Shown: positions 51,696 to 54,623 of the stretch, piece by piece
Layout of the letters: every line of letters begins with the position of its first letter
Numbering within the stretch: the first letter of the stretch is position 1
From: Salibaculum griseiflavum
Lineage (GTDB): Bacteria > Pseudomonadota > Alphaproteobacteria > Rhodobacterales > Rhodobacteraceae
Length of the DNA: 64,000 bases
Reading direction: 5' to 3'
NCBI RefSeq assembly: GCF_003129565.1
Contig: NZ_QETF01000009.1
Span: 62,001-126,000, forward strand
Notes under the pieces: model-generated
Told to the model about the DNA's origin: nothing
The model's database searches: none
The model's input: the letters and a program-made list of their open reading frames with translations, nothing else
Position numbers and translations under genes: made by a program

Positions 51696-52009
51696 CCCAG
51701 ATCGACGACCAGACCCGCCTTGAACTGGAAGCCGCCGCGTTTCGCCGGCTGCAAAAGCACCTGATGGAAGATCGCCCCGACGTGCAGAATATCGACCTGA
51801 TGAACCTGGCCGGGTTCTGCCGCAACTGCCTGTCCCGCTGGTATCAAGAGGCCGCCAACGCGCGCGGCATCGAGATGACCAAGGAAGAGGGACGCGAGGT
51901 GTTCTACGGCATGCCCTATAACGACTGGAAGGCCCAGAGCCAGACCGAGGCCAGCCCCGAAAAACAGGCGGCCTTCGAGAAGGCGTTCAAGGAGAATGTG
52001 GGGGAGTAG
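51692..52009 (+). CDS. DUF1244 domain protein
   Basis: A 105-residue alphaproteobacterial protein of unknown function. The conserved part is FRRLQKHLMEDRPDVQNIDLMNL followed by GFCRNCLSRWYQ, whose Cys-x2-Cys pair might bind metal, then the helix KEEGREVFYGMPYNDWK. It is translationally coupled to the preceding amidohydrolase gene by a four-base overlap, suggesting a shared process. Confidence 0.85.
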   Translation: MTQIDDQTRLELEAAAFRRLQKHLMEDRPDVQNIDLMNLAGFCRNCLSRWYQEAANARGIEMTKEEGREVFYGMPYNDWKAQSQTEASPEKQAAFEKAFKENVGE

Positions 52010-52129
52010 GGCAGATTCCAAGGATGATCGGACGCGCGCCCGTCCGGCATAGGGTATCAAAAGCACCACGGCATGGCGGGCCGTCCTCGCGCCACGTCGC
52101 TCAAGTTCAGACAATGCGCAGGTTAAGCC

Positions 52130-52867
52130 GTGCTCCGACCGTCACTGAAATACTCTCTGGTCTCGGCCTTCACGAAACAGCCCGATCTGCCCGCGTTCGA
52201 GGGCGAGGCGCTGGTCTTCGGCTCGGCGCCGGACCCGATACTGCCACGCGAAACAGAGCCCGAGACAAAGCTCGTTTCTGTCAATGCCTCGCAGGCCTCG
52301 CTTGACCGGTTTTTCGACGACCCGCCAGATTTCACCTTCATGCGGTCGAATTTCGTCCGAAACCGGCAGGTCGATACTGAAATGGTTTCAGCCCTCGCCA
52401 ACAGGCGGACCAAGCGGCTCTTGTTGGTCTGCACCGAGGGTTTGAACAAGACCCAGGAAGAACTCAGTGCGCAACTGGCCCCCAACCTCAAAATTCTTGG
52501 CGAGGCCGGCTATCTTTTCGACGCTTGCACACTGCTGAGCAATGCGCAGCGGCACCTTGTGATCAACCAAGCGGTTGAAGGACGTCGCCGGGCTCTGAAA
52601 TCGCGCAAAGTCACTTCAATGGGCGTTTTTGCTGCAGCGGCCTGCCTGCATATGGGTGCCAGACGAGTGACAATCGCCGGGATCTCGCTGAATCAATCGG
52701 GGCATTCCTACTCCGGTTCCGCCTTGCCTCGCGCCCATGTCACCCGGGATCAACAGGTGCTCAGGCTCTTGGCCAAACGATACGGAAATCGCATAGTATC
52801 CACCGATGCGTCACTATGCGAATTGACCGGGGTTCAGCCATATGACGGACCGGTGCGGACGGACTGA
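52130..52867 (+). CDS. Unrecognised protein, resembles CMP-sugar (GT42/DUF115-like) glycosyltransferases
   Basis: I do not recognise this 245-residue protein with certainty. The N-terminal strand-loop ALVFGSAPDP (about 27-36) and VSVNASQASL resemble the nucleotide-sugar loop of GT42 and DUF115/MptE-like proteins. The C-terminal part TSMGVFAAAACLHMGARRVT then IAGISLNQSGHSYS resembles the GT42 segment that follows the catalytic histidine region. It faces kdsB, which makes CMP-Kdo, consistent with a transferase for a CMP-activated sugar, but that is inference. GTG start; base composition is less GC-rich than around it. Confidence 0.5.
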   Translation: MLRPSLKYSLVSAFTKQPDLPAFEGEALVFGSAPDPILPRETEPETKLVSVNASQASLDRFFDDPPDFTFMRSNFVRNRQVDTEMVSALANRRTKRLLLVCTEGLNKTQEELSAQLAPNLKILGEAGYLFDACTLLSNAQRHLVINQAVEGRRRALKSRKVTSMGVFAAAACLHMGARRVTIAGISLNQSGHSYSGSALPRAHVTRDQQVLRLLAKRYGNRIVSTDASLCELTGVQPYDGPVRTD

Positions 52868-52893
52868 GGACGCAGATACTTTGACGACCGGCC

Positions 52894-53637
52894 TCAGGGC
52901 AGCCCGTTCTCCTTCAGGAAAGCCTCGACCTTGCCCACGTCATCGAAGGTATCGACAGCCAGGCTACGGCCGGACAGTTCCACCATCTGAATGTCATACC
53001 CCAACTCGGCAAAGCGCAGGATCTCGATATCCTCGATCTCTTCAAGAGGCGTCTTTCGGCCCTGCTCACCAAAGGCTCTCAGCTTTTCTACAGGAAAGCT
53101 GTAGATACATATCTGCTTCCACCCGCCCATGAATGTGTCGGCCTTATTACCGGGGATCGGAGCGCGCGACATGTACTTCATTTTCTTGTCCTGATCGAAG
53201 ACGACCTTCGGAACCGCCCGCGATCTCCATTCCGCCTCGTCCGCAATGCGCGCGTAGCCGTTAAGGATAGTATCGGGATCTGCACAGGCGCGGCTGACCA
53301 TGGTCCGAATATCGTCGGGGTCGATGATCGGTTCATCGCCTTGCACATTGATTACGATATCGACATCGGCATGTTGCAGTGCGAATTCGTATAGACGGTC
53401 CGTTCCCGTCAGGCACGCCTCACCCGTCATCGCGACCTGTGCACCGGCGCGTTCGGCGACCTCCTTGATGCGCTCGTCTTCGGTGGCAACCCAAACCCTC
53501 TCAGGATTGACGGCCTCCACCGTTCTCTCCCAGGTTCGGACGATCATCTCCTTGTCGCGAATCTTGAGCAACGGCTTGCCCGGAAGCCGGGTGGACTTGT
53601 ACCGCGCCGGGATCACAACCGCATAATTCGGCGACAT
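52894..53637 (-). CDS. kdsB: 3-deoxy-manno-octulosonate cytidylyltransferase
   Basis: Activates Kdo to CMP-Kdo for lipopolysaccharide core. The 247-residue enzyme starts with the nucleotide loop VIPARYKSTRLPGKPL, has VWVATEDERI, VINVQGDEPIIDP and the late QICIYSFPVEKLRAF block. Normal length and all key motifs. It faces the glycosyltransferase-like gene, 26 bases away. Confidence 0.95.
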   Translation of the reverse strand: MSPNYAVVIPARYKSTRLPGKPLLKIRDKEMIVRTWERTVEAVNPERVWVATEDERIKEVAERAGAQVAMTGEACLTGTDRLYEFALQHADVDIVINVQGDEPIIDPDDIRTMVSRACADPDTILNGYARIADEAEWRSRAVPKVVFDQDKKMKYMSRAPIPGNKADTFMGGWKQICIYSFPVEKLRAFGEQGRKTPLEEIEDIEILRFAELGYDIQMVELSGRSLAVDTFDDVGKVEAFLKENGLP

Positions 53638-53759
53638 TCTCTAAGCTCCGATCCTTTGCCACGACCGGCATGCCGTGGTGCTCCGTAAGCAGGTTCCAAG
53701 CAATCTTGCTGGAATGCAACCGCATGGGCGAAAAGAAATCAGTGGCGTATCCTGTCCGC

Positions 53760-54623
53760 TCAAATCGCCGCCTTGCGGCTTTCCTCCAGGTAGATTTCGC
53801 GCAGGCGTTTGGACACAGGGCCCGGCGTGCCGTCGCCCAGCACCGCCTCGTCCACCTGCACGACCGGCATCACGAAGGTCGAGGCCGAGGTGACGAAGGC
53901 CTCGTCCGCATCCTTTGCCTCATCAATCGTGAAATGGCGTTCCTCGACCTTCATCTGCGCCTCGCGGGCGAAGCGCAGCACGGCGGCGCGGGTGATCCCG
54001 TGCAGGATATCGTTGGACAGCTGGCGCGTAATGATCGTGTCGCCCTTGACGATATAGGCGTTGTTGCTGGTGCCCTCGGTCACGTGGCCATCCTCGATCA
54101 TCCAGGCATCGTCGGCCCCGGCCTTCTTGGCCATCATCTTGCCCATGGACGGGTAGAGCAGCTGCACCGTCTTGATGTCGCGCCGGCCCCAGCGGATATC
54201 CTCGATCGAGATGACCTTGATGCCCTTCTTCGACGCGGGGCTGTCTGCCAGGCCGGGCTTGGACTGGGTGAACAGAACCACGGTGGGCTTGACCTCCTCC
54301 GGATCGGGAAAGACGAAATCCCGGTCTTCGGCGGCACCGCGCGTGACCTGAAGATAGACCATCCCATCGGTAATCCCGTTTACCCGCACCAGTTCTCGGT
54401 GAATTTCCAGCAGGTCGTCGAAACAGTCGGGTTTCTGGATATCCAGTTCTGACAGCGACCGCTCAAGCCGCGCCAGGTGCCCGTCGAAGTCGATCAGCTT
54501 GCCGTCCAGCACGCTGGTGACCTCGTAGACGCCATCGGCCATCAGGAAGGCCCGGTCGAAAATCGAGACCTTGGCGTCGCCCTCGGGCAGATACTGGCCA
54601 TTCACATAGACGGTGCGGGACAT
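53760..54623 (-). CDS. dat: D-amino-acid transaminase
   Basis: A class IV PLP enzyme of 287 residues that interconverts D-alanine, D-glutamate and 2-oxoacids. Features are the family start YVNGQYLPEGDAKVSIFDRAFLMADGVYE, IEDGHVTEGTSNNAYIV and GITRAAVLRFA. Sequence is closer to D-amino-acid transaminases than to branched-chain ones, though class IV specificities overlap. It lies 17 bases after ilvD on the same strand. Confidence 0.87.
   Translation of the reverse strand: MSRTVYVNGQYLPEGDAKVSIFDRAFLMADGVYEVTSVLDGKLIDFDGHLARLERSLSELDIQKPDCFDDLLEIHRELVRVNGITDGMVYLQVTRGAAEDRDFVFPDPEEVKPTVVLFTQSKPGLADSPASKKGIKVISIEDIRWGRRDIKTVQLLYPSMGKMMAKKAGADDAWMIEDGHVTEGTSNNAYIVKGDTIITRQLSNDILHGITRAAVLRFAREAQMKVEERHFTIDEAKDADEAFVTSASTFVMPVVQVDEAVLGDGTPGPVSKRLREIYLEESRKAAI

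Follow-up and report, generated by a model that had tools for sequence, protein, structure and literature searches.

What is the product of a gene that matches no named protein family and faces a CMP-Kdo synthetase gene in a bacterial genome? The question is raised by an open reading frame in the window, the whole stretch of 64,000 nucleotides of Salibaculum griseiflavum DNA that was analysed. A first-pass annotation of the locus had suggested that the product could be an unusual transferase of Kdo, which is an acidic sugar, or of a sialic-acid-like sugar, or else a relic of a surface-polysaccharide island. We consider it probable that the gene, hereafter the target gene, encodes a CMP-Kdo-dependent surface glycosyltransferase of an unnamed family with the sialyltransferase fold, and that it was acquired with its own CMP-Kdo synthetase. 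The locus comprises the following features.

52130..52867, + strand: target gene, predicted to encode a CMP-sugar (probably CMP-Kdo) glycosyltransferase of 245 aa with a GTG start; from the ORF call, an AlphaFold2 model, fold comparison and relatives
52894..53637, - strand: kdsB2 (our label for the window copy), an extra kdsB for a CMP-Kdo synthetase of the NF009905 type, convergent with the target gene; from Pfam and NCBIfam
52010..53753, no strand: low-GC stretch (GC 0.581) of 1744 bp with only the target gene and kdsB2 inside, flanked by the DUF1244 and D-amino-acid transaminase genes; absent from three congeners

The reading frame contains the motifs quoted by the first-pass annotation (VFGSAPDP, TSMGVF at residues 162-167 and IAGISL at residues 182-187), and it is coding as judged by homology rather than by codon usage. 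Searched against plasmids with tblastn, the target matched 66 records, 64 of them with at least 80% coverage, the best at E 5e-12 with 30% identity over 96% of the query. Codon usage was discarded as coding proof, since the in-frame score of 0.423 does not stand out from the 0.436 and 0.421 of two antisense frames. The neighbour is, as had been supposed, a CMP-Kdo synthetase gene facing the target, across a gap of 26 bases: its product scores 130.1 bits against CTP_transf_3 (PF02348; cut-off 22.6) and 268 bits against NF009905 (cut-off 255).

The low GC content previously noticed for the target (0.585, GC3 0.67) spans both genes, kdsB2 having a GC of 0.574 (GC3 0.71) against 0.616-0.674 (GC3 0.77-0.85) in eight neighbouring genes. 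Three congeners (L024-L026) align with the window up to positions 52002-52009 and resume at 53754-53760; the intervening DNA measures 1744 bp in the window and 287, 726 and 1504 bp in L025, L026 and L024, respectively. Within the genus this site, bounded by the DUF1244 and D-amino-acid transaminase genes, varies. Because differing DNA lies between aligned flanks, the target gene and kdsB2 occupy a variable site and appear to have arrived together, apparently as an acquired two-gene insertion. The L024 insert holds an Imm11-type ORF (24.4 bits, cut-off 22.1), and L025 and L026 hold other DNA. Among four congeneric genomes, with the window's own (G000) counted, the target is present in one and the same one has kdsB2; the flanking DUF1244 gene is kept in all four. 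Every one of the four has a KdsB match, with two copies in G000 alone; the single KdsB of each of the other three shares 35-37% identity with the window copy. On contig C45, G000 carries its other KdsB, which differs in type from kdsB2 (NF003950, 348.6 bits, cut-off 234) and is adjoined by ORFs that resemble galU and cysQ by eye. Both reading frames of the insertion are open and the structural model is confident, which speaks against the relic suggested earlier; what stands of the island is one of two genes.

Two kdsB genes found elsewhere deserve mention. The closest to kdsB2, at 50% identity, lies on a Leisingera plasmid (L084:8377-11379) between aldolase-domain and HAD hydrolase genes, an arrangement suggestive of a complete, stand-alone pathway to a CMP-activated 3-deoxy-ulosonic acid. 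Another kdsB-like gene, 38% identical to kdsB2, is carried by a Streptomyces plasmid (L086:7974-8717), unexpectedly for a Gram-positive organism.

Pfam, NCBIfam and PHROGs contain nothing that matches the target at E <= 1, and the PDB, searched with the single sequence, yielded four chains, all at E 1.6 or worse; the open-access literature that was searched assigns no function to the family. Its predicted fold is more informative. The AlphaFold2 model, built from 33 aligned sequences (alignment A3), has a mean pLDDT of 89.0 and a pTM of 0.89. Foldseek ranks 1-9 against the PDB are occupied by sialyltransferases throughout (E 1.9e-4 to 7.7e-4), a Pasteurella enzyme supplying one chain and Cst-I/CstII the other eight; SteA follows at rank 10 (E 8.2e-4). 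VIA-align likewise places Cst-I (Z 12.7, 198 aligned residues, rmsd 4.2) and CstII (Z 12.4) at the top, with 191-198 residues shared in the GT-A variant sialyltransferase fold. Archaeal HPPK (8sd5, Z 11.9) and SteA (Z 11.0) come next, then GT29-type enzymes (Z 9.6-8.7) and thiamin pyrophosphokinases (9.1-6.8), the remainder lying at 4.1 and below. Rows at most 1 Z apart were counted as tied, which ties HPPK with Cst-I; with SteA also near, the fold by itself neither fixes the function nor proves transferase activity. The first-pass annotation had expected a glycosyltransferase fold and offered to give the idea up for an unrelated one; the expectation was borne out by both programs, with the tie to HPPK, of the MptE type that it had also named, left standing. 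Among all PDB sequences the target-family profile found only sialyltransferases at E <= 10: the Pasteurella enzyme and seven forms of CstII, eight matches in total, each weak singly (best E 0.086).

The conserved residues fall into a few short blocks, counted over 89 family members, 88 of them complete.

52214..52237, + strand: Motif I, VFGSAPDP, residues 29-36; G31, S32 and P34 in 89/89 members
52283..52285, + strand: N52, invariant in 89/89 members
52607..52690, + strand: Motif III, residues 160-187 (KVTSMGVF...IAGISL), the stretch matching CstII in the HMMER alignment; G165 and G184 in 88/88 complete members
52700..52711, + strand: GHSY, residues 191-194; H192 and Y194 in 88/88 complete members, Y194 gaplessly on CstII Tyr162
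52730..52750, + strand: R201-x-H203-x3-D207; D207 in 88/88 complete members

Two residues of the window protein are off-consensus, V161 (K in 79/89) and M164 (N in 82/89). In the ungapped 42-residue HMMER alignment of the family profile with CstII, the conserved Y194 falls on Tyr162, on the CMP side of CstII; in role and numbering we take this to be the CMP-phosphate tyrosine and Tyr156 to be the second one. The place of Tyr156 is occupied in the target by Asn188, at a position that varies within the family. The general base of GT42 Cst-I/CstII is presumably His188, for which conservation, rather than residue-level superposition, offers two candidate counterparts, H192 and H203. Residue 203 is His in 69 members and Gln in 19, and the latter form one clade with support 1.0. 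A second paralogue in Sinorhizobium (L006:14914-15651), adjoining KpsF, has Gln in this place and may differ in mechanism.

How does the protein compare with enzymes already described? Its identity to Cst-I and CstII is only 10-13%, motif III and the His region appear by eye to be separated by fewer residues, and in contrast to GT42 systems no sialate synthetase was found in the window genome. The Cst-I family PF06002 has no match at E <= 1 in the target and none in its genome, and the 10 families listed for the 33 A3 members do not include it. With this match absent and one of the two tyrosines missing, we do not file the target in GT42, although it probably works like a GT42 or GT29 enzyme. 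GT42 enzymes invert. For GT29, fold comparison gives the same class at a lower Z, level with thiamin pyrophosphokinase (9.1), and the target has no Pfam match of the GT29 kind. GT29 nonetheless includes an earlier example of this fold with a Kdo donor: according to passages of PMC11288761, plant RCKT1 (MGP2) is a CMP-beta-Kdo transferase, differing from the target in being a plant enzyme with a pectin acceptor, and GT29 proteins invert, so that CMP-beta-Kdo yields an alpha link.

Other Kdo transferases resemble the target less. The motif order SGPS, VNGA, GxDL of WaaZ, the GT73 KdoIII transferase, looks alike in the target by eye, and GT73 is placed with the variant folds in a passage of PMC8476585, a paper on fold prediction. 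The WaaZ profile TIGR04437, however, matches neither the target nor two relatives. An hhalign comparison was colinear over 199 columns with E 0.066, but shuffling the columns 100 times gave as high a score in 8 and 5 cases, and a reversed profile scored higher in one of two set-ups (19.3 vs 18.7). Searched against the PDB, the WaaZ-like profile found CstII at E 0.09, which ranked after a host-range protein (E 0.06) and the uncharacterised 5mu5 (E 0.003); this weak contact was given no weight. Lacking a TIGR04437 match and significant profile similarity, the target is not filed in GT73. Nor does it match PF04413 or PF05159 (GT30 WaaA, KpsC/KpsS), whose matches in its genome sit on contigs C2, C5 and C44. 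KdoT of A. baumannii was set aside, being described in passages of PMC12856342 as a GT-B enzyme. The surroundings of one remote relative of the target include, at a distance of about 6 kb, an ORF (L089:14292-15368) that by eye resembles the ELM1-like group, to which the Kdo transferase KdoT belongs.

Relatives are 20-31% identical to the target and thinly spread. Single-protein searches found none in 294 other genomes of the taxonomic family (0/294) and no close relatives in genome contigs or viral contigs. A profile search of a sample of the class found the family in 4 of 385 genomes, the window's own included, and its distribution is therefore sporadic. Six closer relatives used as queries located 57 loci in genome contigs, including Rhizobium, Sinorhizobium/Ensifer, Phyllobacterium, Paracoccus and Pigmentiphaga. 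In the tree the window protein sits on a long branch (2.94), joined to a phage protein at a support of only 0.753. This distant relative, from Alcaligenes phage CASP1 (L007:7797-8540; 24.5% identity, E 3e-4, profile E 5e-25), is possibly a surface-modifying enzyme. For a phage origin of the target it is the sole distant phage relative, viral contigs having given none.

The neighbourhoods of 68 loci were compared (the window, 10 others and the 57 from the scan). Genes of Kdo metabolism recur in them: BLAST detects KpsF-type arabinose-5-phosphate isomerase genes in 10 loci, eight of Sinorhizobium/Ensifer (L006, L027, L029-L031, L033-L035) and two of Rhizobium (L079, L081). WaaZ-like genes occur in 18 (11 Sinorhizobium/Ensifer, 2 other rhizobia, 5 Pigmentiphaga); the eight WaaZ-like proteins compared with TIGR04437 (KdoIII transferase WaaZ) all match it at E 5e-6 to 9e-19, each below the 200-bit cut-off. 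With 8/10 and 11/18 of these loci from Sinorhizobium/Ensifer, the counts are not independent events. BLAST with fixed queries found 47 GT8-like ORFs and 32 of a type we call X290 in the 67 loci besides the window. A KdsB match (BLAST at 1e-4) was found in the window alone, some of the loci being incomplete, and the window lacks the partners common among relatives: X290, GT8-like, WaaZ-like and KpsF genes. Paracoccus, Neorhizobium and other such loci have a group of two or three genes (target relative, X290, GT-like) amid unrelated genes. In Pigmentiphaga (L028, L032, L038, L040, L042), the family stands with GT8-like and WaaZ-like genes. Pigmentiphaga belongs to the Betaproteobacteria; its relatives are 63-68% identical to a Neorhizobium protein, a closeness that suggests transfer between classes.

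The neighbour X290, annotated as 3-deoxy-manno-octulosonate cytidylyltransferase, adjoins many target relatives, for example:

L006:19950-20780, - strand: X290-type annotated protein
L003:13782-14651: X290-type annotated protein
L005:16508-17377: X290-type annotated protein

Two X290 proteins compared with Pfam had no match, CTP_transf_3 included, and one compared with NCBIfam had none either. The model of the L030 member (pLDDT 83.3, pTM 0.74) has Cst-I and ST6GALNAC2 as its nearest folds, both at Z 10.6 and tied with HPPK (10.1), and its best Foldseek match is a mammalian sialyltransferase (E 2.2e-3). Given the missing family matches and a predicted fold of the sialyltransferase type, X290 is probably not KdsB, and the label is probably a propagated misannotation, perhaps originating in the S. 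meliloti gene named kdsB2. A direct link between X290 and the target family was rejected: hhalign gave E 0.32 over 29 columns, with 45 of 100 shuffles as high, and the two have in common the fold class alone.

In Sinorhizobium meliloti 1021 the neighbourhood lies on pSymB. Its genes run X290 (+), target relative (+), WaaZ-like (+), GT8-like (-), PMT-like (+), second target relative (-), KpsF (+), acyltransferase (+), short ORF (+), pyruvyltransferase (-) and ABC transporter (+), with names transferred according to position and length from strain RCAM1115, whose annotated genes follow this order too; besides the pyruvyltransferase, acyltransferase and ABC transporter, the cluster contains sulfotransferase and other glycosyltransferase genes. 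SMb20813 is called the msbA homologue in a passage of PMC10945364. Counting ten genes back from this ABC transporter, and leaving out a 111-aa ORF before it that has no annotation in RCAM1115, identifies X290 as SMb20803, the target relative as SMb20804 and the WaaZ-like gene as SMb20805; these tags are counted, not looked up. SMb20804 and the rhizobial 'membrane-anchored protein' family belong to the target's family, at the identities given above and with the invariant residues in common; SMb20804 clusters with X290, GT8-like, WaaZ-like and KpsF genes, whereas the window copy stands with kdsB2 alone.

A passage in PMC5539429 describes the S. meliloti capsule as a homopolymer of beta-(2-7)-linked Kdo. 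It names rkpA, kdsB2, smb20804 and smb20805, after its ref 37 (Muller 2009), as genes affecting the KPS of strain 1021, and reports that mutating them raises the competitive index under the peptide NCR247. By the product name X290 carries in the records, we take the kdsB2 of that passage to be X290. As far as the passage goes, then, a target relative seems tied to the all-Kdo capsule of a legume symbiont. The beta linkage fits an inverting fold poorly, since forming it from CMP-beta-Kdo calls for retention. The relative may catalyse a different step, the fold may be capable of retention, or the polymer may be made by other enzymes.

What, then, is the donor? The window genome is 99.99% complete and has two CTP_transf_3 genes at E <= 0.001, both KdsB by NCBIfam, and it is because of this gene content that we choose Kdo. 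A sialic, legionaminic or pseudaminic acid donor would accord with sialyltransferases being the closest solved folds, but with both CTP_transf_3 genes of so complete a genome being KdsB, and PseF scores (32.0 and 34.2 bits) that fall below the 205.7-bit cut-off, we think such a donor very improbable. The Kdo half of the earlier proposal thus gains from the relatives' neighbourhoods and, within the limits of the passage cited, from S. meliloti, and the sialic-acid half loses by the gene content. This organism has a need for Kdo in any event: the waaA search that had been recommended returned two PF04413 matches in its genome, and Capsule_synth genes (KpsC/KpsS-type, PF05159) are also found. These genes need CMP-Kdo, and kdsB2 might be a passenger supplying it for LPS or capsule beside a surface glycosyltransferase of this fold that uses another donor, a reading to which the lone kdsB match among the 68 loci and the frequency of GT8-like genes lend some weight. 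All four congeners, however, have Capsule_synth genes and three of them a single KdsB, so kdsB2 is not required for these, and the KpsF and WaaZ-like genes near relatives point separately to Kdo; we regard a passenger kdsB2 as unlikely.

Less likely still, in our view, is that the target has this fold but is no transferase, being instead a pyrophosphokinase like HPPK/MptE or a regulator like SteA. The nearness of HPPK and SteA to Cst-I in Z, and the thiamin pyrophosphokinases below them, would be expected of such a protein; MptE-like proteins are also among the best viral fold matches of the target, and one relative has a sub-threshold MptE-like match (E 0.087, 13.0 bits against a gathering cut-off of 34.6). 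This family (PF01973), to which we take archaeal HPPK to belong, has no match in the target, no significant match in relatives and no place among the matches at E <= 1 listed for the 33 members of A3. Against a protein of this kind stand also the eight PDB matches of the family profile, all sialyltransferases, and the glycosyltransferase and other surface-glycan genes that adjoin relatives.

We therefore return to the CMP-Kdo-dependent transferase. The target gene and kdsB2 would constitute a surface-glycan cassette gained by horizontal transfer, in which KdsB2 would activate Kdo with CTP to CMP-Kdo and the target would transfer Kdo from it to a surface acceptor. The mechanism would be inverting, as expected for the fold, with His192 or His203 as the putative base. 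As a wider hypothesis, advanced tentatively and with some doubt, the family may represent a new group of CMP-Kdo transferases in bacteria that have the sialyltransferase (GT42/GT29) fold and are distinct from GT30, GT73, GT107 and KdoT and presumably from GT99, and it may build the Sinorhizobium Kdo capsule together with the sialyltransferase-fold protein named 'KdsB' and the WaaZ-like enzyme. Were the product really beta-linked, one of the three (target family, X290 or the WaaZ-like enzyme) would have to retain configuration on a fold that is known for inversion.

If correct, our interpretation would name an enzyme family left blank by Pfam, NCBIfam and PHROGs and link it to Kdo chemistry, with the synthetase and the transferase forming a two-gene module that is easy to test. 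It also suggests that the 'KdsB' annotation in rhizobia and Paracoccus is wrong, and it makes the family a source of glycosyltransferase candidates for the Kdo capsule of Sinorhizobium.
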